A stretch of 56,221 nt of DNA from a bacterium (GCA_021778415.1 JAJYCL010000020.1:1-56221), one strand, 5' to 3'; shown: positions 2,818-54,781, counted from the stretch's first letter. Notes: a model not told the origin generated them from the letters alone. Made by a program: numbers and translations.

Positions 2818-2905
2818 GGCAATTTTAAGTTGCGAATAGGTCTGGCGACGCATTGACCAGCATAGAAAGCCTATACGCTTGAATGGCATCGGTTCGGGCG
2901 TACGA

Positions 2906-6566: not shown

Positions 6567-6570
6567 CGCA

Positions 6571-7413: not shown

Positions 7414-7442
7414 CGCGGCTTGCTGGAGAAGAAGTCGACGAA

Positions 7443-8234
7443 TTAGCGGTTTGTCCAGTTCGGTTTGCGCTTTTCAAGAAACGCACTCGTGCCTTCTTTG
7501 AAATCGTCGGTGTTCACGAGCGCTCCAAATTCCAACGCTTCGATGTCCATGGCATCGCGAAGCGAAAGATGCGCGCCCGTATTGATGGCGCGCTTGCAGG
7601 CCGCGATTGCCAGCGGTGCTTTTTGTGCGATGAGCGTTGCAATGCGCACCGCTTCGGTTCGCAGATCGGCGAGCGGAACAACGCGCTGCACCAAGCCGAT
7701 CCGCAATGCCTCGTGCGCATCGATGATCTCACCGGTGAGGCAGAGATACATCGCCATGCCGCGTCCGATAAGGCGCGTGGTGCGTTGCGAACCACCGTAG
7801 CCGGGAATGAGGCCGAGGTTGACTTCCGGTTGCCCGAATTTCGCGTTTTCACTGGCGATACGAATGTCACCGGACATCGCCAGTTCGCACCCGCCGCCGA
7901 GTGCAAAGCCATTGATCGCGACGATTACCGGCGTACCCATGGCTTCGATTTGCAGCGTGAGCGCCTGCCCGACGCGGGCTTTTTGTGCGCCGGAAACGGC
8001 ATTCGGGAGCGCGTTAAGCTCCCCGATATCGGCACCGGCGGCAAACGCTTTCTCGCCCGATCCGGTGAGGATAATGGCGCGAATGTCATCGGCGGCGTCA
8101 AGATCGTGAAATGCCCGGGAAAGCTCGTCGAGCACGTCTGCGTTGAGCGCGTTGAGAACGGCCGTGCGGTTCAACGTGATCGTTGCAATCGGCGGAGTGC
8201 GCTCAACGAGAATCATCTGGTACTCACTAGCCAT
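7443..8234 (-). CDS. Enoyl-CoA hydratase (crotonase family)
   Basis: Hydrates 2-enoyl-CoA to 3-hydroxyacyl-CoA. The ATG at 8234 (263 residues) overlaps the dehydrogenase stop codon by 8 bp and is preferred over an upstream in-frame start. Crotonase hallmarks: AFAAGADIGEL near 63-73 for the oxyanion loop, and the two catalytic glutamates in GGGCELAMSGD (Glu117) and FGQPEVNLGLIPG (Glu137). The pair with the next gene performs two successive steps of beta-oxidation or of butyrate-type synthesis. Short-chain specificity is plausible but not shown. Confidence 0.9.
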   Translation of the reverse strand: MASEYQMILVERTPPIATITLNRTAVLNALNADVLDELSRAFHDLDAADDIRAIILTGSGEKAFAAGADIGELNALPNAVSGAQKARVGQALTLQIEAMGTPVIVAINGFALGGGCELAMSGDIRIASENAKFGQPEVNLGLIPGYGGSQRTTRLIGRGMAMYLCLTGEIIDAHEALRIGLVQRVVPLADLRTEAVRIATLIAQKAPLAIAACKRAINTGAHLSLRDAMDIEALEFGALVNTDDFKEGTSAFLEKRKPNWTNR

Positions 8235-9084
8235 GATAATCGTAGAAGCCTTTCCCGCTCTTGCGTCCGTAATGCCCGGCAAGCACCATGCGCTTGAGCA
8301 GCGGCGGCGCAGCCATCATCGGATCCTTGAACTCATCGAACATGATCTGCGCAATGTAATACGTGGTATCCAGGCCGACGTAATCGAGCAGCGTGAGCGG
8401 GCCCATCGGATAGCCGCAGCCGAGTTGCATGCCCTTATCGATATCTTCCTTACTCGCCAAGCCGCCTTCGTAGCAACGAATGGCGTAGAGCAGATACGGA
8501 ATGAGCAAGCGGTTGACAATGAACCCCGGCGTGTCTTGCGCAAGCACGGGTTCCTTGCCGATTTTCTTTGCGAAGGCAAAGAGCGCGTCGATCACATCTT
8601 GCGTCGTCGCAATGGTTTTCACCACTTCGACAAGTTTCATGAGCGGAACCGGATTAAAGAAGTGCAGGCCCGCAACGCGGTTCGGGCGCTTCGTCTTGGC
8701 GGCTAATTCGATGACGCAAAGTGACGACGTATTCGTGCAGATGATCGCATGCGGAGCAAGGATGGCATCGAGGCTCTGGAAGAGCGCCGTCTTGATTTCA
8801 ACATTTTCGATAATCGCTTCGATGATGAGATCGCAGTCTTTCATGTCTGCGACATTGGTCGTCGGCGTGATGCGAGCCAGCGTTGCGTCGCGGTCCGCCG
8901 CCGTCATTTTGCCCTTCTCGACGAATTTTTCGAGGCTTTTGGCAATCATGCCCATGCCGCGGTCAAGCGGCACTTGTGCCGCCTCCATCAATACGACCTC
9001 AAACCCTGCAACGGCGCAGGTTTGCGCGATGCCGTTGCCCATCAGGCCGGCGCCGCAGACTCCAACTTTGCGAATCTCGCTCAC
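8227..9084 (-). CDS. 3-hydroxyacyl-CoA (3-hydroxybutyryl-CoA) dehydrogenase
   Basis: NAD(P)-dependent interconversion of 3-hydroxyacyl-CoA and 3-oxoacyl-CoA. I chose the GTG at 9084: AGAGGA lies about 10 bp upstream and the product then begins SEIRKVGVCGAGLMGNGIA, the expected Rossmann start; another GTG at 9126 would add 14 residues. The catalytic His is in GLHFFNPVPLMKLVEVV, and NRLLIPYLLYAIR and YPMGPLTLLDYVGLDT mark the C-terminal dimer domain. At 285 residues it is the usual size for the single-domain PaaH/Hbd type. First gene of the minus-strand run that ends at the ACT gene. Confidence 0.92.
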   Translation of the reverse strand: MSEIRKVGVCGAGLMGNGIAQTCAVAGFEVVLMEAAQVPLDRGMGMIAKSLEKFVEKGKMTAADRDATLARITPTTNVADMKDCDLIIEAIIENVEIKTALFQSLDAILAPHAIICTNTSSLCVIELAAKTKRPNRVAGLHFFNPVPLMKLVEVVKTIATTQDVIDALFAFAKKIGKEPVLAQDTPGFIVNRLLIPYLLYAIRCYEGGLASKEDIDKGMQLGCGYPMGPLTLLDYVGLDTTYYIAQIMFDEFKDPMMAAPPLLKRMVLAGHYGRKSGKGFYDYHG

Positions 9085-9234
9085 GTGAGTTAATCCTCTC
9101 TTTATCTTGGCAAGGCTCCGTTCCACCGGGGTGAAAAGAGCGCGAGGGGCATTCGCGCTGCCGCAGGGAATCTACCTTTGCGGCCTGGGGAGATTTGAGA
9201 ATTGGCCGATGCAGAATTTGGAGGGATTGACTAC

Positions 9235-9870
9235 ATGCGGACCGCGTACCATGAGGCGCTCGATGCGACACGACTCGATGTCGTTCGCTTAGGTGCCCTT
9301 GCCGCCGATGCGTTTCGGATCTCCGTTGAGGCGTTGGATCGTCGCGATTCGGCCGCCGGCGCTCGCGTTGTCGCGGGTGACGATGCGATCGACGAGCTGC
9401 GTCGTCGCATCGAATCCTCGTGTATCGAACTCATCTGGAAGCAGCAACCCGTCGCCGGTGAACTGCGCGAAGTCGCCGCGATGCTCGAAATCGTCACCGA
9501 TTTAGAGCGCGTCGGTGATTACGCGGTCGAGATTGCCAAGAACGCCATCAAGCTCGCCGATAACGCTTTTCGCCCGCAGAAAATCGAAGTCGATCGCATC
9601 GGTCACCTCGCCCACACCATGCTCCTTGATGCCATGCGTGCCTATATGGAACGCGACGGAGTTCTTGCGGATCACGTCATCGCGCGCGATGATGAAGTCG
9701 ATAAGCTCTATAAGCGCTCGATTAAATTATTGCAGCAAGAGATGCAAGCCGATCCCGAACTCGTCCGTCCCGGAACCCGCTACGTCTTCGTGCTGTCGAA
9801 TATCGAGCGCACGGGCGACCGCGCGAATAATATCGCCTGGCATACGAAAGCGATGCTCGGCGAAGCGTGA
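9235..9870 (+). CDS. phoU: PhoU-type phosphate regulation protein
   Basis: Negative modulator of phosphate uptake signalling between the Pst transporter and the PhoR/PhoB pair. Start: ATG at 9235 with GGAGGG about 10 bp before it. The product (211 residues) is the usual pair of three-helix bundles, each with a metal-binding signature: EIVTDLERVGDYAVEIAKNA in the first half and SNIERTGDRANNIAWH in the second. No pst or phoR genes adjoin it here. It diverges from the beta-oxidation genes over about 150 bp that must hold both promoters. The next gene overlaps its stop by 4 bp. Confidence 0.92.
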   Translation: MRTAYHEALDATRLDVVRLGALAADAFRISVEALDRRDSAAGARVVAGDDAIDELRRRIESSCIELIWKQQPVAGELREVAAMLEIVTDLERVGDYAVEIAKNAIKLADNAFRPQKIEVDRIGHLAHTMLLDAMRAYMERDGVLADHVIARDDEVDKLYKRSIKLLQQEMQADPELVRPGTRYVFVLSNIERTGDRANNIAWHTKAMLGEA

Positions 9871-40592: not shown

Positions 40593-40868
40593 ATGCTCGT
40601 TCTTAGCCGAAAAGTCAACCAGTCGATTATGATCGGCGATGATATTCGTTTGGTGATCGTCGGCGTCGACCGCGATCAGGTGAAGATCGGCATCGAGGCG
40701 CCCAAGACGGTCCCCGTCCATCGCTCCGAAATATATGATGAAATTCAAGCCTCCAACGAGGCCGCAGCGGCCTCCGGACAGGCAAGATCTGGTAAAGCCA
40801 AGTCCGCCCCCCTCGCGGGAGGACAGATCAACCGAGCGGCGGCTGCATTACGAGGGAAAAATCGCTAA
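40593..40868 (+). CDS. csrA: Carbon storage regulator CsrA
   Basis: Small RNA-binding protein that blocks ribosome sites containing [54 protein letters not shown] is complete, including the RNA-contacting Leu4/Arg6 strand and the VHRxEI segment. The 91 residues exceed the usual 60-75 through an Ala/Gly/Lys-rich C-terminal tail (about 56-91). FliW binds the C-terminal side of CsrA, so the longer tail may matter here. Ribosome site GGAGGG at 40578. Its TAA stop is shared with the flagellin promoter. Confidence 0.95.
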
Positions 40869-40893: not shown

Positions 40894-40968
40894 GAAAAAT
40901 GAGGGCATGGAACGCTCTCACCTAGGTCAGTCTTCACGCTCACGCGCGTGGTCATGGAGGAAATAACA

Positions 40969-42225
40969 ATGGCAACCAACGGCATTAGCCTTGCTAACAA
41001 CCTGTTAGCAAACAATGTCCTCTACAACCTGAATCAGAACCAGAATTCGTTGCAGCATATTACGCAGCAACTTTCTTCTGGTTTGCGTATTAATAACGCA
41101 GCAGATGATCCGTCCGGTCTCGCTATCGCGACGAATCTTCAAACGCAGGTTGACGGCTTCAATCAAGCCGTTCAAAACGTGCAGACCGCAAATAACGCAA
41201 CGCAAGTTGCCGACGGCGCTCTGCAAACCACCACCGACATTCTTCAGCGCATTCGTACTCTCGCAATCGAAGGTTCGAGTGATCTGTCAAGCAATGCGGA
41301 CCGTGCGAATCTTCAAGCGGAAGTAAGTCAACTTCTCCTCGAAGTCAATCGCATTTCGCAGAATACCTCGTTCAACGGCCTTCCGTTGCTCGATGGCAGC
41401 CACGCCGGCTTCCAACCGCAAGTCGCAGCGAACGTTAACGTCACCGCTAACGCAGCGTTGGCAACGAATGGTGCGCAAGCGATCGTCAACGGCGTCAACG
41501 CTGGGTTCCTGGCCGCTTCGGTCACCGGCGCAAATGCGAACTTCAACACCACCGTTGGTGCAACGGGCACCGTCGATGGCACGATTGAACTCCAGGTCAT
41601 CAATACCGGCGTGTCAATCGCGGTTCAAGAAACCTTCATCAACAGCGCAACCGGCGCGATCTCGGTCGCAACGACGCTGTTCTCGGGTAACCAAGTCAAT
41701 GCCAACTTCGATAACGTCTCGGTTACGACCGGCGATATCACGTCGGCAGATGTCGGTACCACGTCGTACATCAAGGTCAGCCAAAACGTCGCAGCCCTAA
41801 CCAACCCGAACAACCCTGCATTCAACTTCCAGTCGGGCGCGAACGAAGGCGACGTCATTCAAGTCGGTCTCCAGGCGACGAATACGCAAACCTTGCGCAT
41901 CTCGCAAATCAACGTGGCCCTCTCGTCCTCGAACAACCCATCGCTGGGTGCAGAAGACGCGATCGGTCAAGTCGATATCGCTCTGCAAACGTTGCTCACG
42001 CAGCGTGCACAGCTCGGAGCCGTCATCGTTCGCTTGAACGAAGACGCACAGAACGACCAAGTTGCGGCAGTCAACCTTCAGGCCTCGGAATCGAACATCC
42101 GCGACCTCAACGTCGGCCAGGCAACGACGGAGTTCACGCGACTCCAAGTCCTCATCCAGGTTGGCACCTCGGTTCTCTCGCAATCGAACGCCAACGAGCA
42201 GTCGGTACTGGCTCTCTTCCGCTAA
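40969..42225 (+). CDS. Flagellin
   Basis: Filament subunit, 418 residues. D0/D1 N-terminal segment: NNVLYNLNQNQNSLQHITQQLSSGLRINNAADDPSGLAIATNLQTQ and RIRTLAIEGSSDLSSNADRANLQAEVSQLLLEVNRI. C-terminal segment: GAVIVRLNEDAQNDQVAAVNLQASESNIRDLNVGQATTEFTRLQVLIQVGTSVLSQSNANEQSVLALFR. The central domain is small and rich in Ser/Thr/Asn, offering O-glycosylation sites. ATG at 40969 with GGAGG eight bases upstream. It has its own promoter and a strong terminator-like stem, and is followed by three large glycosyltransferase genes. Confidence 0.96.
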   Translation: MATNGISLANNLLANNVLYNLNQNQNSLQHITQQLSSGLRINNAADDPSGLAIATNLQTQVDGFNQAVQNVQTANNATQVADGALQTTTDILQRIRTLAIEGSSDLSSNADRANLQAEVSQLLLEVNRISQNTSFNGLPLLDGSHAGFQPQVAANVNVTANAALATNGAQAIVNGVNAGFLAASVTGANANFNTTVGATGTVDGTIELQVINTGVSIAVQETFINSATGAISVATTLFSGNQVNANFDNVSVTTGDITSADVGTTSYIKVSQNVAALTNPNNPAFNFQSGANEGDVIQVGLQATNTQTLRISQINVALSSSNNPSLGAEDAIGQVDIALQTLLTQRAQLGAVIVRLNEDAQNDQVAAVNLQASESNIRDLNVGQATTEFTRLQVLIQVGTSVLSQSNANEQSVLALFR

Positions 42226-42277: not shown

Positions 42278-42339
42278 GCTATTTCTCTTGGCGTTTGAAG
42301 TAAGGGCGTCGCAGACCATTGGCGAAGCATGCTCGGGAA

Positions 42340-44412
42340 ATGCCAATTCGGATTCGGTCTCTACGACCGTCAGCAGCCGCGCCGGCAGTGCCGGCCGCAG
42401 TGCAGAGCATCGCACTGCCGCCAGCTCCCGCGGATTGCGAACAAGTGGAACCCGGGCTTTCGCTCTGTATGATCGTGAAGAACGAGGAGCAATTCCTCAA
42501 ACAGTGCTTACAAAGCGCGGCCGGAATCGTCGACGAAATGTGCATCGTCGATACGGGCTCCACCGATCGCACCATTGAAATTGCCGCGTCGTTCGGTGCG
42601 AAAATCGAACGCATCGAATGGCGGAACGATTTCGCCTGGGCGCGTAATGTGTCGCTGGCTATGGCGACGAAGCGATGGATCATCGTCCTCGATGCCGATG
42701 AAGTCTTACTTCCTGAATCGTTCGCGTCGCTGCGCGAACTCAAAAGCATGGACGCCTATCATACGGCGGTATGGTTGCGGTGTTTTAATCGTGCGGATGA
42801 TTACAAGGGAACGGGAGCGATGTCGCACGCGCTCATTCGCATCTTTCCGAATCGCCCCGAAATCCGCTACCGAGGAATGATTCACGAGTTTCCAACGCTT
42901 GATAACCGTGATACCGGGCTCGATGCCGTTGTTTCGCCAGTAGCCATCGATCATTTCGGTTACATGAAAGAGATCGTTCATGGACGCAATAAGGGGCAAC
43001 GGAATCTGGATATCGTACGAGCCGCGGCCGAGCAAGAGCCTGAGGATCCGTTTCACTGGTTCAATTTGGGCTCGACGGCCTTTCTCGTCGGAGACCCGGA
43101 AACTGCTCGCGTCGCTCTGGAGAAAATGATCGTCATTGCGGGAGACCGTCAACGCGGATTTCTTCCGAATGGTCTTGCTCTGCTTTCGGAAATCTATTGC
43201 GATAAAATGCACGATCCCGTGCGAGCCGAGCAGGTTGCCGAACATGCGTTACGCTTATCTCCTCATTATGCTAATGCGCACTTTCAGTTGGGGAAAGCCC
43301 TCATCGGCCAGCGCCGTTTCATCGAAGCTCGGCGCGCATTCGAAGCTGCCATCGAGGATGGGCAGCACGCCAAGAAGCAATTTGTCGTCGATGATGAGGT
43401 CTACATTTGGAAGGCGCACAGTGAATTGGGATCGAGTTTCGTCATGGAGGGTAACGATACCGAAGCGCTGGTATGGTTTGATCGTGGGTTAAAAAATCGT
43501 CCGAATGCTCAACCCCTGCGCATCAATCGCGCTCGAGCACTCGAGCGATTAGGACGGCACAATGAGGCTCGCGAAGCGCTTTCCGAGTTGCATCGACTCT
43601 ATCCCGATGATGCCACGACGGTCGAGTACGTGAATTTTTTGCTTCGCCATGGGTTCGAACGCGATGCCCTCGATGTCGTCGATGCCTCGATTGCGCACTT
43701 GACGGGGGAGGCGGCCGTATCGTTATTACTTGGTGCCACGGCTGTTGCCCAGAAGCTCGGCTTGGAAAGCGACGAGCGTTACCTTCGTTTAGCCGCGGAA
43801 CGAGCGCCCGGCTCGTCGCTCGTTTTGGGGCCACTGCAAGCATTGCTTGAAGCGCGCGGTCGTGGCCATGAATTTCAACTGTACGCCGATCGCGAACGGG
43901 AGACCTCACCGCAGTCGTTGGATGATTATTTGCGTCGCTCCCACTTTGCCATGCTCGCCGCAAATTTTGACGAGGCCGCTTCAATCGCAGGTGCAGGCTT
44001 AGAGCGCTATCCCGACGCGAATCAATTGCGCTATAACGCTGCCTCCGCGTTAGCTCGCAGTGGCCAACGAGACAAGGCGTTGGAAATTCTTGCCGACTTG
44101 CATGCACATCACGGTGACGCCGGTTTGCGGGGAGCACAGCTCGAAATTCAACTGCTGATCGAGCAGAACCGCATTGACGCCGCTGTTGGCACGGCAATGA
44201 ATGCGACTGAACGATTCCCTCAAGACGTATCGCTGGCACTTGCCTACGCTCAACTCTTAGTGCGCAATAATCAATCCGAGGACGCCGTAGCGTTTCTCAC
44301 CGGTGTGTTCGATGTGGATCCTCATCGTATCGGCGTTGAACTTGGAACATTGCTTGTTTCTTTGGGACGTCTAGAAGAAGCCGGGCGTATTGCCGAGAAG
44401 GCCCTTTCCTAA
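42340..44412 (+). CDS. Family 2 glycosyltransferase with TPR repeats
   Basis: GT-A glycosyltransferase at about residues 45-250 (LSLCMIVKNEEQFLKQCLQSA, IVDTGSTDRTIEIAASFGA, DAWxxDADE-like IIVLDADEVLLP). It is followed by about 400 residues of TPR-like helical repeats (HYANAHFQLGKALIGQRRFIEARRAFEAAI, PLRINRARALERLGRHNEAREALSELHRLYPDD). This GT2-TPR layout is known for flagellin and other protein glycosyltransferases that hold their target with the repeats. The ATG at 42340 is used; a TTG at 42319 would add seven residues. Three bases separate it from the next glycosyltransferase. Confidence 0.88.
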   Translation: MPIRIRSLRPSAAAPAVPAAVQSIALPPAPADCEQVEPGLSLCMIVKNEEQFLKQCLQSAAGIVDEMCIVDTGSTDRTIEIAASFGAKIERIEWRNDFAWARNVSLAMATKRWIIVLDADEVLLPESFASLRELKSMDAYHTAVWLRCFNRADDYKGTGAMSHALIRIFPNRPEIRYRGMIHEFPTLDNRDTGLDAVVSPVAIDHFGYMKEIVHGRNKGQRNLDIVRAAAEQEPEDPFHWFNLGSTAFLVGDPETARVALEKMIVIAGDRQRGFLPNGLALLSEIYCDKMHDPVRAEQVAEHALRLSPHYANAHFQLGKALIGQRRFIEARRAFEAAIEDGQHAKKQFVVDDEVYIWKAHSELGSSFVMEGNDTEALVWFDRGLKNRPNAQPLRINRARALERLGRHNEAREALSELHRLYPDDATTVEYVNFLLRHGFERDALDVVDASIAHLTGEAAVSLLLGATAVAQKLGLESDERYLRLAAERAPGSSLVLGPLQALLEARGRGHEFQLYADRERETSPQSLDDYLRRSHFAMLAANFDEAASIAGAGLERYPDANQLRYNAASALARSGQRDKALEILADLHAHHGDAGLRGAQLEIQLLIEQNRIDAAVGTAMNATERFPQDVSLALAYAQLLVRNNQSEDAVAFLTGVFDVDPHRIGVELGTLLVSLGRLEEAGRIAEKALS

Positions 44413-44415
44413 CTC

Positions 44416-47025
44416 GTGGATTATTCGATTATCATTCCGCTTTTTAACAAGGTGGCTCTGACCAAACAATGTCTCGATGCTCTGCCTGCAACGATTGCCG
44501 ATGCCGGCAGTGGCGAGGTCATTGTTGTCGATAACGCTTCGAGCGATTCGACGTCCGAGTTGTTAGGAGCGTATCCCTGGATCACGGTGCTGCGCAATGA
44601 CGTGAACGTCGGCTTTGCGCGCGCGAATAACCAGGCTGCCAAAGTCGCAAAGGGCGAGTTTCTCGTCCTGCTCAATAATGATACGGTACCGCACGCCGGT
44701 TGGTTGGCGGCGATGATCAGGACCGCGCGTCAGACGCAAGCCGGCATCGTCGGTGCGCGGCTTTTATTTCCCGATGGCACAATTCAGCATGCCGGGGTGG
44801 TCATGTCACCCGTTCGCTTATCGCGCATCGATACCGTGCCGGTACATTTTGCCTATCGGTATCAAGCGTCGGATCCGACGGTCAATCAGCGTCGTCGCAT
44901 GCAAGCGGTCACGGCTGCGTGTATGCTAACGCCGCGTGAGGTCTATCGGCGTGTGGGTGGCCTCGATCCCCAATTTTGGAATGGCTACGAGGATGTCGAT
45001 TACTGCCTCAGGGTTCAGGATCTCGGATTAGACGTTTTCTACGAGCCTACCGCTGTTGTGACGCACTTCGAATCGCAATCCGGAGCGCATAGATTCCGCC
45101 AAGTAAATTGGAATACCGAGTTGCTAGCTCGGCATTGGAACGGTCGCATCCACGCAGACGATGTTGCTACCTATTTATCGGCCGGGGCTCTCCATGTGCC
45201 GCGGCGTACGCCTCGAGGCGGCTATAATCTTGTCGACTCCGCCATTCCGGACGTAACGCTTCTCTTGCTCAACGCAGATGAGACGAAAGCAAACGAGATT
45301 CGCCGGAGTGTACGCGACGAAAAGACGCCTCTTCGCGAGGCGATCGTGCTCCCAACGGAGGGGTGGTTCGCATCCGTTTCGGCGGCTCTTGAGCGACGCG
45401 GAGCGCGGTACGTGTGCTTTCTCGATGCTCGAGCACAGCTTGTGAGCGGGTGGCTCGATGCGTTAGTGGCGACGGTTGAGTGGAGTGAGACGATAGGAGC
45501 ATCAGCCGCGAGTCCGAGCTTGTCATGCGATTTCGACATCGTTGCCACGGCGATCGGCGCACGGTGTACGCTTATTGCAATGGATCGTTATCCGCAGCAT
45601 CATCGCCCGTTGCCGTTCCCGACCGTCGATGGAACCGTTGCCGATTTTCTCCATCGAGGCGCCGCCTTTGCGCTCACAACTCGTGGCGTCAGCAAAGCAA
45701 TCGGGTCGATTCCGCAAGCCGAATCGGATCCCGAAATTTTGCGCCGATATGAAATCGATCTTGCGGGAAATACCGAGTGTCGCGAAGAGCGCATCGAAGA
45801 AATTTTCGCATCGCTTATTCCCAAGGAGCCTCGGCCACAGTTGGTGTCTATTGTGACGCTCAGTTGGAATGCGTTGGAGTTCACAAAGCTGGCAGTGGAG
45901 TCGATTCAAGCTCATACGTCGGTTCCATTTGAATTGATCGTGGTCGATAACGGCTCGGATGAGGCGACCGTCGCGTGGCTTCGCGCACAGCCCGATCTTC
46001 GGGTGATCTATAATACGGAGAATCGTGGTTTCGCCGGCGGAAATAATCAGGGCATGGCCATTGCTCGTGGGGAATTCGTCATCGTTCTTAATAACGATGT
46101 TCTCGTTACCGACGGATGGGTGGAAGGGCTCCTTGCCCCGTTCGGGCGCATTCCGACGTTAGGGATGAGCGCACCGCGTAGCAACAAAGTCGCCGGTTCG
46201 CAGCAACTCGAAATCGCGCAGTATGCAACTGCCGATGAATATCAAAGTTTTGCGCAGCGCACACGTCGCGAATCCGCCGGGATGGGATGGCTCACCGATC
46301 GCGCGATCGGGTTTTGCCTTTGCATCGATCGCCGGGTCATTGAGGAAGTCGGCGGCTTTGACGAACAGTACGACGTCGGTAACTTTGAAGATGACGATTT
46401 TTCACTTCGCGTTCGCTCGGCAGGCTATAAAATTCTGGTGTGCGACGATGTCGTCATCCATCATTTTGGCAGCAAAACATTTGCGGCCAATAAGATCGAT
46501 TATGCCAATACGATGCAACGAAACTGGGCGATATTCGCAAAAAAATGGGATTTCCCCAAAGCCTACCCTACGAATGGGTATTCCTCGGTGCACGCGATAG
46601 CTCGCGGCTTTGATCGCGCAAAGCATTTTGCCCCGTTGGCGCTTCCCTCGTCTTCAAAAGTGCGCTTTGTCGCGAGTGTGTCCAATGAATCCGATTGGGA
46701 GAATCTTGCTGCGTTTGTGAAACGATTCGCGCGTGCATTCGGCTCGAAGGACCCGGTGATGCTTGATATTGCGGCATTTGGCGAAACCGACCCTGAGATC
46801 ATCGGCAAACGCATTGAACGTTTACTCGAACGAATCGGCATCGCAAGTGCAAATACGGCACTCATAGACATTGGCTATGAGACATCATTTGAATTGTGGC
46901 TCGGTGATGCGAAAGGTACGTTCCGCATCACTGATGGGGGGAATGCGCACTACACTGCGATTCCCATGCGGAACACCCTCGGCGTAAAAGCCTTGCAAGC
47001 ACTTGTCGCTGCGGAGCTCTCCTAA
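44416..47025 (+). CDS. Bidomain family 2 glycosyltransferase
   Basis: Two GT-A domains in one 869-residue protein. First (about 1-240): YSIIIPLFNKVALTKQCLDAL, VVDNASSDSTSELL, LVLLNNDTVPHAGW and GYEDVDYCLRV. Second (about 475-720): VSIVTLSWNALEFTKLAVESI, VVDNGSDEATVAWL, VIVLNNDVLVTDGW and GFDEQYDVGNFEDDDFSLRV. Each has its own Asp-x-Asp type motif (NNDT and NNDV), so both may be active, perhaps adding alternating sugars. The region between is a degenerate domain. GTG start at 44416. Coupled with the genes on both sides. Confidence 0.9.
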   Translation: MDYSIIIPLFNKVALTKQCLDALPATIADAGSGEVIVVDNASSDSTSELLGAYPWITVLRNDVNVGFARANNQAAKVAKGEFLVLLNNDTVPHAGWLAAMIRTARQTQAGIVGARLLFPDGTIQHAGVVMSPVRLSRIDTVPVHFAYRYQASDPTVNQRRRMQAVTAACMLTPREVYRRVGGLDPQFWNGYEDVDYCLRVQDLGLDVFYEPTAVVTHFESQSGAHRFRQVNWNTELLARHWNGRIHADDVATYLSAGALHVPRRTPRGGYNLVDSAIPDVTLLLLNADETKANEIRRSVRDEKTPLREAIVLPTEGWFASVSAALERRGARYVCFLDARAQLVSGWLDALVATVEWSETIGASAASPSLSCDFDIVATAIGARCTLIAMDRYPQHHRPLPFPTVDGTVADFLHRGAAFALTTRGVSKAIGSIPQAESDPEILRRYEIDLAGNTECREERIEEIFASLIPKEPRPQLVSIVTLSWNALEFTKLAVESIQAHTSVPFELIVVDNGSDEATVAWLRAQPDLRVIYNTENRGFAGGNNQGMAIARGEFVIVLNNDVLVTDGWVEGLLAPFGRIPTLGMSAPRSNKVAGSQQLEIAQYATADEYQSFAQRTRRESAGMGWLTDRAIGFCLCIDRRVIEEVGGFDEQYDVGNFEDDDFSLRVRSAGYKILVCDDVVIHHFGSKTFAANKIDYANTMQRNWAIFAKKWDFPKAYPTNGYSSVHAIARGFDRAKHFAPLALPSSSKVRFVASVSNESDWENLAAFVKRFARAFGSKDPVMLDIAAFGETDPEIIGKRIERLLERIGIASANTALIDIGYETSFELWLGDAKGTFRITDGGNAHYTAIPMRNTLGVKALQALVAAELS

Positions 47026-49020
47026 ATGCGTTGGCATGCAGGCCGTCTTCGTGGGCTATGCGGCTACGATGTTCGTCATGCGCACCTTATTCAGCGCACG
47101 CACCTCGTTTCGGTCCGCTTTGAGCCGACGTATTCCATGCGGCATGCCGGGTGCGTACTCGATCTTTGCTTTGCCGATGAGCGTCATGTCGAGATTGTCG
47201 CGGGAGTTCTCGCGCCGTTTCCGATGGTGTTGCTTGCCGAATCAACGCCGCTCTTATGGCCCAAAAATGTTGCCGAAGTCATTTCCGCGGATCGGTTAGG
47301 GATCATTGAAACCGATCTTTTGCTGTGGTTACGCGCGATGACGAGCGGTCGCCGACCCGTTGCCGAACGTCTTCGACTCTACACCGATGGCCCGATCGGC
47401 GAACTCGTTACAGCCGCTCGTGCGCATGGGTGGCTTGGGGCGGCGCCGTATCGCGATGTCGCGCTGGGCGCAGCACCGGGAGCCTATGCCGCGAGTCGCT
47501 ACGCGGAGAAATCGGTGCAGGTCAGCGATCACCCGGCCGGTGCAACGGGTGCATGGATGCTCTCGCAGGAGAACCAGGTTACGGCCGATCTCGGATCATC
47601 CGAGATCAATGAGTCGGCGAATCGCTGGTTCGACACGACGATTTTTGGAACGCTGCCCGAAGAGAAGCCGCAGATCGCCCTCGGTTTTCGTGACGCCTTG
47701 ACTGCAAGTGAATGTCTCGTCGCCGAGAACGGCGGTGATGTCAGCGAATCGATGGTTGAGCCGATGCCCATCGATCTCATGCTTTCATTCGATCCCGACG
47801 ACGGTCCGCTTGCGCGCTCGTTTTCGGTTCTAGTGTTCGCGCAACCGCAGCTCCGTCGGCAGATTTCGGTGGCGACTCCGCAAGCTTTGGGAGGGTCGTC
47901 GGGGCGAATCGCGTTCTTGCTTCGTCCTGATTGGAGATCGGATCCCGATGCGGATAGCGAATCGGCCTTCGTTCTTGCCCAGTGGCTTCGCGGCGAAGGC
48001 TTAACCGTCACGCTGTGCGACGACGCGAGCATCACCGATCTGTCGTCGTTCGATCTGCTCCACGTCCACGGTTTGCACCATCCGCAACGGCTCCATCTCA
48101 TCACTCGTGCAGCACGGGCGAAGGGCCTTCCGGTCGTTCTTTCTGCGCAGCTCCATGAAGCCGTCGCCGATCCGCTCTGGGCCATTTCAAATGCGTCGGC
48201 GCTGTACGTCAACAGCATGGATGGCGCGACCGAAGCGCGCTACCGTGATTTTCTGGCGCTCAAGCGGTTGGCGATTTCAGGTTCGAAGCTACCGGGTGAG
48301 CCGCGCGACGCCCGCGACGAAGCGGCCATGAAAGCGATGCTGCAGGATGCCGACGAGATTCTCGTCGCAACGGGTGGCGAGGCAAGCCGACTCGGACAGC
48401 GCTTTGGCATACACGAACGGGTGACGATCTGTGCCGATGCTCTGGCAACGGACGCGCCCGTCGCCGATATCGGGGCCATCGTCGGTTCCTCGGATTTTGT
48501 CCTGTGCGATGCCTCGATAACCGAGCGCCAAAATATCTTGCACCTGGTTCGGGCCGCCCGAGAGGCGCGAGTCCGCCTGGTCTTGAGCGGCCCGGTCCAC
48601 TCGGCCGCCGTCCAGGCTATGCTCTCCGAGTATATCGATCAGCACGTTCTCCTTGCGCCCCATCGCACCGATGCCCAGCGGATCGCGCTCTATCGCCGTG
48701 CCCGCGTCTACGTCGAACCGGGCTTTCTGCCGTATGGGCTCTCCCGTATCGCCTTGGCGCTCGTCAGCGGCTGCGTCCCGGTCGTCCCCAAAGCGTCCGA
48801 TGCGCTCTTGGAGTTCGGTGCCGGCATGATTGGGATGGATCCGCTCAGCGTTTCGGAAATGGCGGCCGGGCTTCGCAGCGCGTGGGATCGTTTCGACTCC
48901 GCGGAACACCGGGCAAGTGCCCGGCGGGCGGCGGCCTGGGCCAACCCGTTAGTGCTTCGGACGACGGTTGCCCAAGCGTATGCTCGGGCAGCCGCTCGTC
49001 AAGCTTCCGTAAGCAGCTAA
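47026..49020 (+). CDS. Large GT-B-type glycosyltransferase-like protein
   Basis: The 664-residue protein starts with a short region that is hard to place (about 1-280). It then shows a GT-B-like pair: GRIAFLLRPDWRSDPDADSESAFVLAQWLRGEGLTVTL with FDLLHVHGLHHPQRLHLI for the first Rossmann domain, and VLLAPHRTDAQRIALYRRARVYVEPGFLPYGLSRIALALVSGCVPVV for the second, the donor-binding E-x7-E-like region of GT4 enzymes. The N-terminal part may recognise the acceptor. It starts at the base after the previous stop, and its TAA stop is used by the flaG promoter. Confidence 0.75.
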   Translation: MRWHAGRLRGLCGYDVRHAHLIQRTHLVSVRFEPTYSMRHAGCVLDLCFADERHVEIVAGVLAPFPMVLLAESTPLLWPKNVAEVISADRLGIIETDLLLWLRAMTSGRRPVAERLRLYTDGPIGELVTAARAHGWLGAAPYRDVALGAAPGAYAASRYAEKSVQVSDHPAGATGAWMLSQENQVTADLGSSEINESANRWFDTTIFGTLPEEKPQIALGFRDALTASECLVAENGGDVSESMVEPMPIDLMLSFDPDDGPLARSFSVLVFAQPQLRRQISVATPQALGGSSGRIAFLLRPDWRSDPDADSESAFVLAQWLRGEGLTVTLCDDASITDLSSFDLLHVHGLHHPQRLHLITRAARAKGLPVVLSAQLHEAVADPLWAISNASALYVNSMDGATEARYRDFLALKRLAISGSKLPGEPRDARDEAAMKAMLQDADEILVATGGEASRLGQRFGIHERVTICADALATDAPVADIGAIVGSSDFVLCDASITERQNILHLVRAAREARVRLVLSGPVHSAAVQAMLSEYIDQHVLLAPHRTDAQRIALYRRARVYVEPGFLPYGLSRIALALVSGCVPVVPKASDALLEFGAGMIGMDPLSVSEMAAGLRSAWDRFDSAEHRASARRAAAWANPLVLRTTVAQAYARAAARQASVSS

Positions 49021-49071: not shown

Positions 49072-49464
49072 ATGGACGTTCAGACTATCGCGACTCCTCC
49101 GGCGACGGCCGCGGGGGCTCAACCAACTCAAGCTGAAGTGCAAGCATCGGCGCCAGCCGACGGTGCGGCTTCTTCGCCGTTACCTGTCGCTTCGACGTCG
49201 ACGGTTGACGGTGTTCCGCTTCCTCCGCAGAGTGGGACGATCGCCGGTGCAGTGGCCAAGTTGTTCGGCCCATCGTCGGGCGCTCCGCAACCGTTGAATT
49301 TGAACGTCACGTATCGGGTCGAACCGCATTCGAATAATATCGTAACGGTTTTTTCCGATCCTCGAACGGGAAAAGAAGTTGCTCAATTCCCTCCGGAAAT
49401 TCTGATCGGAATATCGCAATTTTTTGACCAGCATCAGGGCACGACGCTCGATCACAACGCGTAG
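49072..49464 (+). CDS. flaG: FlaG-family protein
   Basis: Small protein found beside flagellin and fliD genes, thought to limit filament length. The conserved C-terminal half is PLNLNVTYRVEPHSNNIVTVFSDPRTGKEVAQFPPEILIGISQFFDQ, the FlaG core (V-x-V-x-D-x-x-T-G-E/K-x-I-x-Q-I/F-P). The N-terminal 65 residues are Ala/Pro/Ser-rich and look disordered. 130 residues. It is 11 bp before fliD, preceded by its own sigma-28-type site. Confidence 0.9.
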   Translation: MDVQTIATPPATAAGAQPTQAEVQASAPADGAASSPLPVASTSTVDGVPLPPQSGTIAGAVAKLFGPSSGAPQPLNLNVTYRVEPHSNNIVTVFSDPRTGKEVAQFPPEILIGISQFFDQHQGTTLDHNA

Positions 49465-49475
49465 GAGTTACAGAG

Positions 49476-51491
49476 ATGTCTAGTAGCCCGATCACGCCAA
49501 CCACTGGCGTCCAATACGGCACGAATGTTCCGCCGATTTCATTTCCGGGCATCAGTTCCGGGCTTGATTACAATTCGATTATCAATCAGCTGACGACGAT
49601 CGCCCTATCTCCGACGGTTGCGCTCAACCAGCAGATCGCGACGCTCAACGCGGCAAACGCCGAACTGATCAAGATCGATAATTTACTCAACAGTGTGCAA
49701 TCGGCATTGGCCGGACTTTCGCAGTCCAGCAATTTTGCCGGCTACGATGCCCTTTCCAGTAATCTCTCTGCAGCGACGGCGCAAGGCATAAGCGGTCAAA
49801 CGGCCGCCCCCGGAACCTACACCATTAAGAGTGAGACGACGGCAACGTCAACGACGGTTGCCTCTAATGTCAATGCGGGGCATTCGATCACCGATCTTAT
49901 CGGCGGCACTCCGTCGCAAAATGTTCCGCTGATCGATTCCTACGCAGCCGTTACGCCGCAGAATTCGCCTGCGGGTGGCAATGGATCATTCACCGTCGAT
50001 GGCGTGACCATCTCGTATAATGTCGCAACGGATTCCCTCTCGACGATTCTCAGTCGTTTGCAGACCGCTGTTCAGGCGGTTGATCCCGGCTTTACGGCCT
50101 CGCTCATCGGCGGCGGCCGTGTGCAATTAAAGTCGACTGATAAGCCGATTGCCATTGGAAGTGCCAACGATCAAGGCAACCTTCTTTCGGTTCTCAAACT
50201 TGATAGTGCGCAACTCAATAACACGGCGACATCGGGCGTCATAACGTCGACAAGTAACATTGGCGGCATCAACCAAGCCCTCGATTTCAATAGCGTGAAT
50301 GTCGCCGGGCAAACCACCGACGCAAACACGAAAGTGGCCGTAACGGCGGGATTCTTCACGATTAATGGCGTTTCGATCAATGTGAATACGGGCGATAACC
50401 TCGCTTCGGTCATTGCTCGCATCAATGCGTCAACGGCAGGCGTGACGGCATCGTATAGTGCAGACACCAATCAAATTACGTTGACCTCGAATGCTTCCGG
50501 ACCGCAATCGATCGTCATCGGTTCAAGCGGCGATTCAAGTAATTTCTTGTCGGCGGTCGGCCTCACAGGAGCCGGCGTCACCACCAAAATCGGAACGCAA
50601 GCGAAAGTAATCGTTCAGAACCCGAGCGGCGGGACGACGACGTACTATAGCAATTCCAATTCCGTGACCAACGCGATTCCTGGCGTTCAGCTCAATTTGT
50701 TAAGCAGTACGGCAACGCCATTTACCGTCAGCGTCTCACAGAACACGTCGAATCTGGTTAGCGCGGCGAACACGTTTATTTCGGCCTATAACGCCGCCGT
50801 CACCGAGATCAATACCGCAACCGCGCCACCGACGGTGTCGCAGAGTTCGGCACCCGGATTGCCCGGCCAAACGGCAAGTTCGAGTTCCTTCGGCGGCGGT
50901 GTCCTGTACGGAAACACCGATGTCTCGCTCATCCAGCAGCAGTTGACGAATCTCGTTTCGGGCATCGTGCCGGGTGCAGGCACGAGCTATAATTCGCTTT
51001 CGCAAATCGGCATTTCCCTCGATTCATCGGTGACTCAGATCGTCGCCTCGATGCCAACGCCGGGCTCTACGACATCGCCGATCTCGACGCAAACATTGTC
51101 GGGTACGGATGGCCTCTTATCGCCGCTTGATTCGACGAAGTTGCTCGCGGCGTTCACGGCAAATCCCAATGCGGTCCAGACGCTCCTGAATGGGCCGGCA
51201 GGGCTGACGCAACAGTTGGGTGGGTATCTTACGGGCGTCACCGGCTTGCCGACGTTGCTGGCCAACGGCATCGCCGGAAATATTCCTCAAACATCGCTGT
51301 TGCAAAATTTTGAAAATTCGATTACCTCGCAGATTCAAACGATTCAGCAGCAAGTCAATAATATTACCGGAGCTGCCAACTTGCAGGCAGATCTGTTGCG
51401 TTCGGAATTTATTTCGAGCGAAACGCTCATCTCCGGCTATCAATCTCTTCAATCACAACTTGGTAGCTTCTTTAAATCGTCGGGGGCATAA
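49476..51491 (+). CDS. fliD: Filament cap protein FliD (HAP2)
   Basis: Caps the filament tip and folds flagellin into place. N-terminal GISSGLDYNSIINQLTTIALSPTVALNQQIATLNA and C-terminal NFENSITSQIQTIQQQVNNITGAANLQADLLRSEFISSETLISGYQSLQSQLGSFF are the coiled-coil ends of the family. The central two-thirds is a string of beta-rich domains (including repeats of the FTVDGVTISYNVATDSLSTILSRL kind, which recurs near 288 as FTINGVSINVNTGDNLASVIARI). At 671 residues it is larger than the common 450-550. ATG 49476. Confidence 0.95.
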   Translation: MSSSPITPTTGVQYGTNVPPISFPGISSGLDYNSIINQLTTIALSPTVALNQQIATLNAANAELIKIDNLLNSVQSALAGLSQSSNFAGYDALSSNLSAATAQGISGQTAAPGTYTIKSETTATSTTVASNVNAGHSITDLIGGTPSQNVPLIDSYAAVTPQNSPAGGNGSFTVDGVTISYNVATDSLSTILSRLQTAVQAVDPGFTASLIGGGRVQLKSTDKPIAIGSANDQGNLLSVLKLDSAQLNNTATSGVITSTSNIGGINQALDFNSVNVAGQTTDANTKVAVTAGFFTINGVSINVNTGDNLASVIARINASTAGVTASYSADTNQITLTSNASGPQSIVIGSSGDSSNFLSAVGLTGAGVTTKIGTQAKVIVQNPSGGTTTYYSNSNSVTNAIPGVQLNLLSSTATPFTVSVSQNTSNLVSAANTFISAYNAAVTEINTATAPPTVSQSSAPGLPGQTASSSSFGGGVLYGNTDVSLIQQQLTNLVSGIVPGAGTSYNSLSQIGISLDSSVTQIVASMPTPGSTTSPISTQTLSGTDGLLSPLDSTKLLAAFTANPNAVQTLLNGPAGLTQQLGGYLTGVTGLPTLLANGIAGNIPQTSLLQNFENSITSQIQTIQQQVNNITGAANLQADLLRSEFISSETLISGYQSLQSQLGSFFKSSGA

Positions 51492-51495
51492 CGCG

Positions 51496-51969
51496 ATGAA
51501 GCAGCCGGTCGATCAGCGGTATCTGGAAATGTCAATTGCGACATCGTCGAAAGAGACGCTTATCGTCAAAATCTTCGACGTGTTGCTGCTGGCGGCGCAG
51601 ACCGGGTACGATAAGCTGCTCAACGATCGTGGCGATGTTGAAGGCATTCATAAGGCACTCTTGCGCGCTCAGAAGGCACTCGCGATCCTGATGGGCGCGC
51701 TCGATATGGAGATCGGCGGCGATCTCGCGAAAAATCTCTTTCGTGTGTATGAGTTTTGGCATCACGAACTGGTGATGGCAAATATGGAAAAAAATCCCGA
51801 ACGTGTCGAACGCCTCTTGCCGAATTTTCGCTCGTATCGCGAAACCTGGGCTCAGGCGGTTGCGGAATATCAGACTCAGCGACGTGAAATCGAAATCGAA
51901 GCGCGTTCTCACGATCCGCGCCTCTACGATGCTGATTCACATGGATCGAGCTTCGTTGCGGTCGGCTGA
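51496..51969 (+). CDS. fliS: Flagellin export chaperone FliS
   Basis: Binds the flagellin C terminus and keeps it unfolded for export. RYLEMSIATSSKETLIVKIFDVLLLAAQTGYDKLL and HKALLRAQKALAILMGALDMEIGGDLAKNLFRVYEFWHHELVMANMEKNPERVERLLPNFRSYRETW are the helical family core. The ATG at 51496 follows the fliD stop by four bases. 158 residues; the 30-residue tail after the core is extra. Its end overlaps the next gene by 41 bp. Confidence 0.92.
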   Translation: MKQPVDQRYLEMSIATSSKETLIVKIFDVLLLAAQTGYDKLLNDRGDVEGIHKALLRAQKALAILMGALDMEIGGDLAKNLFRVYEFWHHELVMANMEKNPERVERLLPNFRSYRETWAQAVAEYQTQRREIEIEARSHDPRLYDADSHGSSFVAVG

Positions 51970-52351
51970 AGACGAATCGCGCTTACGCGCCATTGCCGAT
52001 CACATTGCGGCACTTGAATTACTTTGTCGCACTCTCGAGTCGCGCCTGATGTCGCGCGATTGGCACGGATTAGAAGAAGCGATAGCCGATTCGCGTCGCA
52101 TCACGCACGGATTGCAAAACGCAATGGAAGATGCGGTCGCGTCGCGCGATGAACTGTTTGATAGTCAGGTGTTTTCGCGTTTGCGCCGTGTCTATGCCGT
52201 TCGGGATGAGCAGATGGACCGCTTGAGTCGCTATCGCGATTCCGTCGGGGAGCGCCTCCGCACGATTTCAAAGTGGAAGGGCTATGCGCGTTCGATCGGA
52301 GCAAAAGATGCTCGGCCACGCGCGACCGTTGGGCTTGATCGGTTGCGCTAA
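51929..52351 (+). CDS. Small helical protein after fliS, possibly FliT-like
   Basis: An all-helical 140-residue protein (LRAIADHIAALELLCRTLESRLMSRDWHGLEEAIADSRRITHGLQNAM). It has the size and position of a FliT or FlgN-type chaperone: short genes after fliS often encode FliT, the FliD chaperone. Direct similarity is too weak to be sure. ATG at 51929 or 51941; both overlap fliS. It ends against the convergent DUF11-like gene with 4 bp of shared sequence. Confidence 0.6.
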   Translation: MLIHMDRASLRSAEDESRLRAIADHIAALELLCRTLESRLMSRDWHGLEEAIADSRRITHGLQNAMEDAVASRDELFDSQVFSRLRRVYAVRDEQMDRLSRYRDSVGERLRTISKWKGYARSIGAKDARPRATVGLDRLR

Positions 52352-53802
52352 CGCGCAATCTCTGTCAGAACGGCAATAATTTGGCGCGCCGCCGCGTCAA
52401 GGCTGGGATCGTTCGTCAAGAGCACCGCCGTCGATCGTTCGATACGTTGTCGTACGAAGAGTCGCTGTAGCGCGTTTGCGGATGCCTGCGAGTAGCCTCG
52501 GAATGCCTGCTCCGCTAACGAACGTTGCGTTGGAGGTATGCCTTCGTTGAGGACGGTGGCGGCACCGAGTGCATGCGTGAGTTGGCGAGCCCGAAGAAAA
52601 TCCCACGGCGAGTTCTGTTGGCCGAGACGCACGAGCGTCGCAAGACCGACGTTGGATGGTTCGAGGGCAAGAATGCAGGTCGATGTTGGCGCTGCAAGGC
52701 GAAAATCCGAAGGAAGCGGTCGTTCACGCAAGGTCTCAAACGTGCAAAGTCGCGTTCCCGCATAGGCGGTGAGTGCGTCGCGTTTTTTTAGCCGTTCGTG
52801 GAGAGCGATGCGCGCAAGGAGTTGGGCTTGCGCTTCCTGATGTTTACGAATTTCTACGTCGTCGCCGGCAGCGACCGGTTGTTGGGTCACGCAGGCAAGT
52901 TGCGACGCAAACGTGAGATGATCCAGGAGCGAAGGTGCGCTACTTCCGTTAAAAACCCGTTCAAAGAACGCGAGAGACGCACGATCGATGGTCGTCGTGA
53001 GCAGAATCGTCGCGCGTGTCATTACCTGCGCAGCGATCTGAACCGGTTCGGGTTCAGGTTCAGGCTCGGGTTCAGGTTTCGGTTCAGGCTCAGGTTCAAG
53101 TTTGGTTGCGCGCCGGGGCTCGGGCGTGGCGTCGTAGGGGCCGCTCACGGCTTCGTGGACGAGTATTTCTTCCTCGTCGAGTTCGTAGATGGGAAGTTCT
53201 TCGATCGCCGGCGGAACGATGGCCGTCGCAACCGATGCCGTAAATGCCCCAGTGGCTCCAACCCGTCGACTGATCCGAAGCGACGTTGGAACGATCACGG
53301 CACTTCCGGTGGCCCGCACGTTGCCGCTAATGATGACCGGATCCGTGCCCGCAAGAACTTCAAGCTGCCAATAAAACGTCGTTCTCGAACCGCCGGCGAG
53401 AGTTCGAAGGGCATACCCGGCCCCGAAAAATGCTTCGGCAACGTCGCCTGCGGCCGGGCGCCCGTCCATGACCAGCGATCCCGGACGCACGCGCGTTGCG
53501 CCGGGGAGCGGAGAGCCGATCAGGATGTCCCGCGCATCCTCTCCGCCCTCGTTGTTGAGTGCAAGCGTGACGGTCAGGACGGCCCCGGGAATAACATCCG
53601 CCGAAGGAGTCGAGTGGAGCGTTGCCACGACCAATGAGCCGTCGAGCGGCGCGAGTTCTTCGTCGATGACAGGGCTACCGGCTTCGGCGTTTCCGCGTGA
53701 TTGCCAGCGTGATTTAACCGGTATCGCTTTGCCGCTGGCCGTTCGGCTGAGTTCCACGAGTCGCATGTCGGCACTCGCTTCGAAGTTCGGGTCGCGTTTC
53801 AT
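52348..53802 (-). CDS. DUF11-like protein with Glu-Pro linker, no signal peptide
   Basis: Residues about 55-190 resemble a DUF11/conserved-repeat immunoglobulin-like domain (GAVLTVTLALNNEGGEDARDILIGSPLPGATRVRPGS, FYWQLEVLAGTDPVIISGNV). A linker of about 20 residues made of Glu-Pro repeats follows near 234-252. The last 230 residues are a helical domain I do not recognise (LFVRQRIERSTAVLLTNDP near the end). DUF11 modules are normally on secreted proteins, but no signal peptide is visible. The start overlaps the ATPase gene (ATGA), so the two are made together. Function unknown. Confidence 0.65.
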   Translation of the reverse strand: MKRDPNFEASADMRLVELSRTASGKAIPVKSRWQSRGNAEAGSPVIDEELAPLDGSLVVATLHSTPSADVIPGAVLTVTLALNNEGGEDARDILIGSPLPGATRVRPGSLVMDGRPAAGDVAEAFFGAGYALRTLAGGSRTTFYWQLEVLAGTDPVIISGNVRATGSAVIVPTSLRISRRVGATGAFTASVATAIVPPAIEELPIYELDEEEILVHEAVSGPYDATPEPRRATKLEPEPEPKPEPEPEPEPEPVQIAAQVMTRATILLTTTIDRASLAFFERVFNGSSAPSLLDHLTFASQLACVTQQPVAAGDDVEIRKHQEAQAQLLARIALHERLKKRDALTAYAGTRLCTFETLRERPLPSDFRLAAPTSTCILALEPSNVGLATLVRLGQQNSPWDFLRARQLTHALGAATVLNEGIPPTQRSLAEQAFRGYSQASANALQRLFVRQRIERSTAVLLTNDPSLDAAARQIIAVLTEIAR

Positions 53803-54713
53803 GAGCGGCGAGCGAAGAACCGCGCGAAAAAACCGGGGTGCGATGCGGTCGAACGCGGCGAGGGTGTATGACCGGAATTCGCGATTTTCGGCAGTGAAAT
53901 GCCGCGCGCTGTCATTGCCGCGCGCACATGATCTTCGTTCACGATCGACGACCCGCGTTCAGCCGCTTCGACGAGTGCGAGGTGAGCGAGCATGGTCAGG
54001 CGACGCGGAATGCCACTCGCGGCGGCGATAAGCATACTGCGCGCATCGGAGGTAAAGAGCAGTTGCCCGTTGCTTAACCCTGCGCGAGCAAGACGATAAT
54101 CAAGAATCGCGCCAGCCATCGAAACGTCGAGGCTGTCAAGGCGAATCCAACCGTCCACGCGATCCGATAGATTGCCAAGTGCTAATATTTTCGGTTCAAG
54201 TTCGGGCTGGCCGAAGAGCAAAATGTTGAGCAGTTTACGCTGAGGCACATGGTAGTTCAACAGCAATCGAAGCGCTTCAAGATTTTCATCCGAGAGTGTT
54301 TGCGCTTCATCGATAATCAAGACGAGTTTGCGCTGTTCGAGAACCGCCGTCTCGAAGAAGAAGTTTTTTAGCGCATTCTTGAGGGCTGCCGGAGATCGCG
54401 GCGGCAAGGCGAGGCCGAAAACGCGGCCGATGGCAATCAGGAACTCGACTTCACCGGTGAACGTCGGATCAAGAATTTTTCCAAGAAGCGTTGCATCGTC
54501 TTGCAAGAGTTCGCCTTCGAGAGCACTGCATAACGACGTCTTCCCGGTACCGGGTTCACCGAGAACGATAGTCAGGCCGCGGGACGCATCGACGGACTCA
54601 AAGAGGCGCTCGCGCGCCCGGCGGAGTGCGCCGAGCTCGCAATAAAAGAATGGGTCAGCGGTATCCAAGAATGGATCGCGTTCGAGGCCGAAAAACTGGT
54701 GATAGTGCTTCAT
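53799..54713 (-). CDS. ExeA-like AAA ATPase
   Basis: AAA+ ATPase of the ExeA/MshM/TniB-like group. MKHYHQFFGLERDPFLDTADPFFYC is the typical start, so the ATG at 54713 is chosen over a TTG at 54749. Walker A is LGEPGTGKTSL and Walker B LVLIIDEAQTLSDENLEALRLLLNY. Sensor segment LLNILLFGQPELE and LDYRLARAGLSNGQLLFTSDARSMLIAAASGIPRRLTMLAHLAL follow. ExeA proteins help assemble secretion or pilus complexes in the envelope; others support transposition. No peptidoglycan-binding or transmembrane segment is seen here. Its only operon partner is the DUF11-like gene. Confidence 0.82.
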   Translation of the reverse strand: MKHYHQFFGLERDPFLDTADPFFYCELGALRRARERLFESVDASRGLTIVLGEPGTGKTSLCSALEGELLQDDATLLGKILDPTFTGEVEFLIAIGRVFGLALPPRSPAALKNALKNFFFETAVLEQRKLVLIIDEAQTLSDENLEALRLLLNYHVPQRKLLNILLFGQPELEPKILALGNLSDRVDGWIRLDSLDVSMAGAILDYRLARAGLSNGQLLFTSDARSMLIAAASGIPRRLTMLAHLALVEAAERGSSIVNEDHVRAAMTARGISLPKIANSGHTPSPRSTASHPGFFARFFARRS

Positions 54714-54781
54714 AAAGGTCGCGGCGGGGTTTTTCCGCTTGAGAGGCAAAAAGTCATCCAGCGCACGGGATTGAGGGCTTT

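Follow-up and report, generated by a model that had tools for sequence, protein, structure and literature searches.

A flagellum-associated pair of an ExeA-like AAA+ ATPase and a DUF11-like adaptor as a candidate undescribed module of Eremiobacterota

An ATPase–adaptor gene pair lies antisense behind flagellar genes

The window, i.e. the whole stretch of 56,221 nt analyzed here, is contig C56 of a 2.59-Mb MAG (G000) that stems from an uncultured member of the Eremiobacterota and is 95.6% complete. Its upstream flagellar genes comprise a flgF/G-type rod gene, flgI, flgK, flgL, csrA (40593-40868, between flgL and flagellin) and the flagellin gene, which is followed by two glycosyltransferase genes, a 664-aa gene, a 130-aa gene, fliD, fliS, and a FliT-like gene. 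Antisense behind these genes lies a pair encoding an AAA+ ATPase and a two-domain protein, referred to as the adaptor, and further glycosyltransferase genes are found beyond the pair.

40948..42225, plus strand: flagellin (Pfam Flagellin_N, 1.3e-33)
42319..47025, plus strand: two glycosyltransferase genes kept in f1 and f2 loci; flagellin is the probable target
49072..49464, plus strand: 130-aa gene occupying the flaG position, between the glycosyltransferase block and fliD; position conserved
49476..51491, plus strand: fliD (Pfam FliD_C, 3.6e-27)
51496..51969, plus strand: fliS (Pfam FliS, 5.9e-22)
51929..52351, plus strand: FliT-like gene, 140 aa, convergent with the adaptor gene; start set from orthologs
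52348..53802, minus strand: DUF11-like plus helical adaptor gene, 484 aa (ORF, orthologs, AlphaFold model)
53799..54713, minus strand: ExeA-like AAA+ ATPase gene, 304 aa (ORF, Pfam AAA_22, 1.1e-22)

The 664-aa protein (47026-49020), located between the glycosyltransferases and fliD, is kept in nearly all f1 loci and has no Pfam or NCBIfam match; the 130-aa gene likewise gave no Pfam match. The FliT-like family adjoins the pair in nearly all f1 loci, and its positional counterpart in deep branches shows a weak Pfam FliT match that stays below the cut-off (E 0.005). Antisense ORFs over fliS, produced by greedy gene calling, turned out to be false in a homology check.

The plus strand reads TCAT at 53799-53802, where the ATPase stop TGA and the adaptor ATG overlap as ATGA, so that the coupling of the two genes proposed in the original prediction is directly readable. 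The ATPase starts at the ATG at 54713, and a longer version from a TTG at 54749 was dropped for want of ortholog support. At its 3′ end the adaptor gene overlaps the stop of the convergent FliT-like gene (CTAA, 52348-52351). No adaptor ortholog carries a signal peptide, and the low hydropathy (at most 0.75 over 19 residues within the first 48 residues of 26 orthologs) speaks against a missed upstream one, in agreement with the cytoplasmic location originally predicted. The ATPase, too, shows no signal peptide, and neither protein of the pair has a transmembrane helix (hydropathy maximum of the adaptor 1.73; ATPase assessed over 24 orthologs).

The ATPase is ExeA-like and ends in a MinD-like tail

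By its sequence, the ATPase is related to the XrtA/ExeA group, in line with the ExeA/MshM kind originally proposed, with a TIGR03015 score of 130.9 bits that falls below the curated NCBIfam cut-off of 324.5. Pfam assigns AAA_22, AAA_16, and other AAA families to it, and neither a ParA/CbiA/MipZ-type nor a peptidoglycan-binding domain was matched. Exosortase (PF09721) was found in none of eight genomes. Orthologs of the ATPase are 50-74% identical, and G52, G55, G57, K58, T59, and S60 of the Walker A motif are invariant in 24 of them.

54534..54560, minus strand: Walker A GEPGTGKTS, ATPase residues 52-60; invariant positions in 24 orthologs
54306..54311, minus strand: Walker B acidic pair D135-E136; invariant in 24 orthologs
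53802..53840, minus strand: C-terminal MinD-like putative membrane-targeting tail, residues 292-304, HPGFFARFFARRS (ortholog conservation)

Following an unconserved linker, the tail has the consensus GFFxRLFxRR, with conservation among orthologs of 79% (F), 79% (F), 92% (R), 96% (L), 92% (F), and 88% (R). It resembles the experimentally tested membrane-targeting tag of E. coli MinD, KGFLKRLFGG (PMC5471200), even if the match is short and the helical moment unremarkable in some orthologs. MinD-like tails bind membranes only when several copies combine (PMC6803595), and an AAA+ oligomer would supply several copies, so that multivalent membrane binding as in MinD can be envisaged. The ATPases of deep branches likewise end in amphipathic or aromatic tails. 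We thus regard the C terminus as a probable membrane-gripping tail, from which cycling on and off the membrane would follow. More distant ATPase relatives are encoded in two loci of class f3 (L074, 9252-10229, and L075, 9332-10288), both near a csrA homolog and the former adjoining a ribosomal S2 gene; they carry Trp-rich C-terminal tails (WWMFWRRAS and WWQWWRRAS), and no adaptor was found with them.

A MinD-like membrane cycle could also serve the placement or number of flagella, with ATPase and adaptor replacing FlhF/FlhG. FlhG similarly pairs a C-terminal membrane-targeting sequence with an N-terminal partner-binding helix (PMC12826062), and its resemblance to the ATPase tail is matched by a lack of recognizable FlhF, which exceeded the TIGR03499 cut-off in none of 149 genomes (best 94 bits versus 174); moreover, flhF-flhG is not located between flhA and fliA in the deep-branching genome G048, nor after flhA in G000. 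However, flagellated genomes of the phylum without the module show the same lack of FlhF, which is therefore not specific, and some divergent SRP-GTPase matches of up to 94 bits might still be FlhF. Since the ATPase is in addition an AAA_22 and not a MinD/ParA protein, and since the neighbors of the pair are the late genes fliD, fliS, and fliT, we consider a placement function rather unlikely, although it is the most probable of the alternatives.

The adaptor joins an Ig domain to a helical domain of unrecognized kind

The adaptor consists of five parts and has full-length orthologs with 27-43% identity; the AlphaFold model of the whole protein reaches a pLDDT of 79.9.

53737..53781, minus strand: N-terminal helix SADMRL-x-EL-x-R, residues 8-22, proposed ATPase-docking peptide (ortholog conservation, model)
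53260..53640, minus strand: DUF11-like Ig domain, residues 55-181 (profile similarity, AlphaFold, fold match)
53143..53193, minus strand: acidic YELDEEE motif, residues 204-220 (conservation; helix 210-220 in the model)
53038..53121, minus strand: Glu-Pro-rich flexible linker (sequence; pLDDT about 41-53)
52354..53001, minus strand: helical "H" domain, residues 268-483 (AlphaFold of the domain alone)

Among 26 adaptor orthologs, S10, A11, D12, M13, R14, L15, and R20 of the N-terminal helix (residues 11-22 in the model) as well as P204, Y206, E207, L208, E212, and A218 of the acidic motif are invariant. The linker is Pro-rich in orthologs yet variable. Direct searches of Pfam, NCBIfam, and PDB sequences with the adaptor returned low-complexity Glu-Pro matches only. 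Although Pfam makes no direct DUF11 call, the predicted DUF11-like module is borne out by the family profile, which matches multi-DUF11 proteins of Eremiobacterota with domain i-E values down to 5e-14 (Pfam DUF11 8.7e-28 for the matched protein), and by the modeled Ig fold, which superimposes on the solved Ig-like structure 9ifr (Z 12.8, rmsd 2.2, 116 residues) and similarly on other Ig-like domains.

The Glu-Pro spacer and the C-terminal helical domain noted in the original prediction are both present. Because fold searches with the whole adaptor were swamped by the Ig domain, the helical domain was folded separately, resulting in a confident model (pLDDT 90.2, pTM 0.89). Neither Foldseek (lowest E 0.58) nor VIA (top Z 5.0) retrieved a convincing PDB match for this model, and therefore we claim no relative for it; in keeping with its description as a domain of unrecognized kind, the model is compatible with a new fold, though a relative could have been missed. 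An internal duplication of the domain is weakly supported by hhalign (probability 30%).

The pair is conserved among flagellar genes and co-inherited with canonical FlhA

Conservation analysis revealed full-length orthologs of the pair in about 20 genera of Eremiobacterota, i.e. more than a chance arrangement. In 25 of 25 scan loci whose contig continues past the adaptor gene, fliS is adjacent and convergent, and fliT and fliD adjoin as far as the contig reaches, except that fliT was not recognized in loci of family f2. When two peptide patterns were used to look for the fused form outside the phylum, the matches belonged only to Eremiobacterota or unnamed bacterial MAGs.

Could the ATPase instead stem from a mobile element of the TniB/IstB kind and have been caught in a flagellar island? 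Its AAA fold is related to such proteins, and the one PDB sequence it matched, 8xvb (E 5e-4), belongs to a transposition ATPase. Constant association with transposition genes, which the original prediction had named as a potential refutation, was not observed: the neighbors are flagellar in all scan loci with sufficient flanking sequence, and one deep locus has a transposase at a distance of about 5 kb. As the gene has a dedicated partner and keeps flagellar synteny across about 20 genera, we rejected this reading as having next to no likelihood.

The original prediction had also called for a co-occurrence search. In 103 genomes of two families, the pair and canonical FlhA are both present in 41 and both absent in 52, with five discordant genomes in each direction; the p-value for this agreement (93/103) is about 1e-17, which overstates independence given that the genomes are phylogenetically clustered. 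For genomes at least 95% complete (n=39), the counts are 19 with both, one with FlhA only, none with the pair only, and 19 with neither; counted by genus, 18 have both, 17 neither, and two and two are discordant. One genus holds both states. In the single-contig genome G008 (3,508,363 bases), the pair, FliD, and canonical FlhA are all missing, whereas its flagellated congeners have them. G008 appears to be a Vulcanimicrobium alpinum-like genome, and V. alpinum (also alpinus) is a species without flagella or a flagellin gene (PMC9758169). Together with the FlhA phylogeny described below, synteny and co-occurrence thus place the pair with the flagellum rather than as an accidental occupant of a flagellar island, a conclusion we consider well supported. 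Conversely, many flagellated Eremiobacterota with another FlhA clade have no such genes, and hence the pair is not generally needed for flagella.

These data also bear on an ExeAB-like role in assembling an envelope ring, be it a secretin or the P/L ring, which is close to the envelope-spanning factor first suggested for the pair. The ATPase belongs to the same superfamily as ExeA, which works with a partner protein, ExeB (PMC4098917). However, ExeA contains a transmembrane segment and a peptidoglycan-binding domain (PMC4098917), whereas the pair has neither, nor any periplasmic part. As originally noted, there is no secretin or pilus gene near the pair; the secretins of G000 are encoded on contigs C33, C9, and C18, and the V. 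alpinum-like genome keeps two of them without the pair. An envelope-spanning factor is therefore not supported, nor is a role with a secretin or pilus, and an ExeAB-like function appears very improbable.

Two genomes depart from this pattern. Genome G119 (90% complete) has the pair but no FliD or canonical FlhA match. Among nearly complete FlhA-positive genomes, G021 alone lacks the ATPase, and its adaptor gene is reduced to the YELDEEE motif and the helical domain, next to fliT-fliS-fliD. As the proposed docking helix and the Ig domain were lost along with the ATPase, the N-terminal half of the adaptor seems to go with the ATPase, while retention of the helical half beside fliT-fliS-fliD indicates a role of its own for the C-terminal half. 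Short proteins with an Ig domain are encoded in genus g18 (L041:9025-9831 and L079:3959-4708) in genomes without FliD, canonical FlhA, and the ATPase; the one in L041 continues into a reduced helical part. They were read as stray or repurposed adaptor derivatives.

The module is unfused in deep-branching families

In deeper families of Eremiobacterota the module is found unfused among flagellar genes, as a helical protein, the ATPase, and a multi-DUF11 array. The best-resolved locus, that of G048, contains flhA, two genes without Pfam match, a PilZ gene, a gene for a flagellar-type sigma factor, a short gene, fliK, a 95-aa gene, and then the helical protein, the ATPase, and a 1141-aa DUF11 array, followed on the opposite strand by a FliT-like gene, fliS, and fliD. 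Related arrangements are present in G046, G050, and G133, with two ATPases each in G050 and G133. Overall, the deep-branch module comes after flhA, fliA, fliK, and an flhB-C-like gene and faces fliT-fliS-fliD. The helical proteins match the C-terminal domain of the window adaptor with E 5e-19 (G050) and 4e-16 (G133), and weakly (2e-5) in G046 and G048. Since the two halves of the adaptor are separate proteins in the deep lineages, the window adaptor looks like a fusion.

In line with the synteny, all module-bearing genomes fall into one clade of the FlhA tree (support 100/100), which also holds six long-branch copies from genomes without a module assigned there. Genomes with two FlhA proteins have one copy in this clade. 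G047 has neither a module-clade FlhA nor the module, and its congener G048 has both. Many f1 genomes additionally carry a divergent FHIPEP (FlhA-like) protein that forms a clade of its own ("x"; e.g., G008:C1:2790584-2792530) and may be a type III export gate of a non-flagellar kind. Two DUF11-array proteins in tandem, each about 1130 aa long, are encoded at 2619-6002 and 6442-9861 of locus L082 (G000:C13:15000-34900). They show no obvious signal peptide, are conserved between genomes (also L085 in G009), and lie near mreD/pbp2-like and parA/parB-like genes, as judged by eye from N-terminal sequences.

The unfused proteins point to a candidate docking peptide. The pattern [NS][KR][LI]L.[LI][LI][KRE] was found at 12 sites in 253 called proteins (78,736 residues in total), all of them within the first 78 residues of module helical or DUF11 proteins. 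One peptide common to two different partners is what would be expected of a docking site on a shared ATPase. The fused adaptor has a single related helix that loosely resembles the peptide of the unfused proteins, and a profile of this helix placed three of the unfused peptides among the best five of 40,240 sequence windows. The shared N-terminal peptide is thus likely to be an ATPase docking motif.

The G048 locus also informs on glycosylation. The module might join flagellin-chaperone complexes and glycosyltransferases at the membrane before export, as glycosyltransferase genes flank the pair in f1 and f2, 12 of 25 loci have a GT-A-like gene immediately after that of the adaptor, and G021 retains this gene along with the helical domain. 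In contrast, the GT-A-like gene is missing from half of the loci, and no glycosyltransferase was found near the module of G048, the fully readable deep locus. For the latter reason, the glycan export aid considered at the outset is unlikely as an ancestral role, and we assign a low probability to a coupling of glycosylation and export as the function of the module.

A model for a flagellum-dedicated ATPase module

Our preferred reading, to which we lean with some reserve, is that the pair forms an AAA+ ATPase/adaptor module that is dedicated to the flagellum, works on the cytoplasmic side of its export apparatus, and probably acts in late, filament-stage assembly. The constant neighbors fliS and fliD and the deep-branch neighbors flhA and fliK fit late export or filament assembly. 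Gene position suggests a function in export; the exact step may be late export, placement, or glycosylation, and the polar organizer originally suggested is still conceivable.

According to this model, ATP binding would lead to oligomerization of the ATPase, so that several weak amphipathic tails could jointly bind the inner membrane in a MinD-like manner. The ATPase would recruit adaptors via their N-terminal helix, the Ig module could act as a rigid arm, and the helical domain may engage a flagellar client such as FliS-flagellin or FliD-FliT chaperone-substrate complexes, or the export gate. The complex would then come off membrane and client upon ATP hydrolysis.

We found no description of ExeA-like ATPases in flagellar operons or of cytoplasmic DUF11 proteins in the literature searched. 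The idea of a candidate undescribed system is upheld in that a conserved, co-inherited module is absent as a unit from the family libraries and the literature covered. It is conceivable, and we put it forward tentatively, that it represents a new flagellar cytoplasmic machine, in which a MinD-like membrane-cycling AAA+ protein drives docked Ig/new-fold adaptors in one flagellar lineage and controls how its filament is assembled or where it is placed. To our knowledge, few dedicated cytoplasmic nucleotide-driven flagellar factors exist besides FliI and FlhF/FlhG. If the model holds true, an ExeA-type ATPase has been adapted to the flagellum as a phylum-level dedicated AAA+ module, with DUF11 Ig domains employed without secretion and with a helical fold that appears to be new. 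Clear tests are possible in organisms that possess two flagellar FlhA lineages but the module with just one of them.

Comparison with known systems

The closest relatives of the window ATPase are the ExeA/GspA-MshM-XrtA AAA ATPases, which belong to the same superfamily (AAA_22, TIGR03015) and also form a gene pair with a partner. In contrast to ExeA/GspA, it lacks the membrane-spanning and cell-wall-binding parts, has flagellar neighbors, and ends in the MinD-like tail; from the XrtA/PEP-CTERM ATPases it is set apart by its sub-threshold TIGR03015 score and by the lack of exosortase in the genomes tested. MinD/FlhG are similar in the short, basic, and putatively amphipathic C-terminal tail and in a partner with an N-terminal helix, whereas the window ATPase has an AAA_22 fold instead of a MinD/ParA fold, and no FlhF partner was found. 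Like ExeB/GspB, the adaptor is the partner of an ExeA-like ATPase, but it is predicted to be cytoplasmic and combines an Ig domain with a new-looking helical domain instead of a transmembrane segment. With DUF11 (PF01345) it shares fold and profile similarity; however, DUF11 domains usually form extracellular arrays, and the adaptor carries one unsecreted copy.
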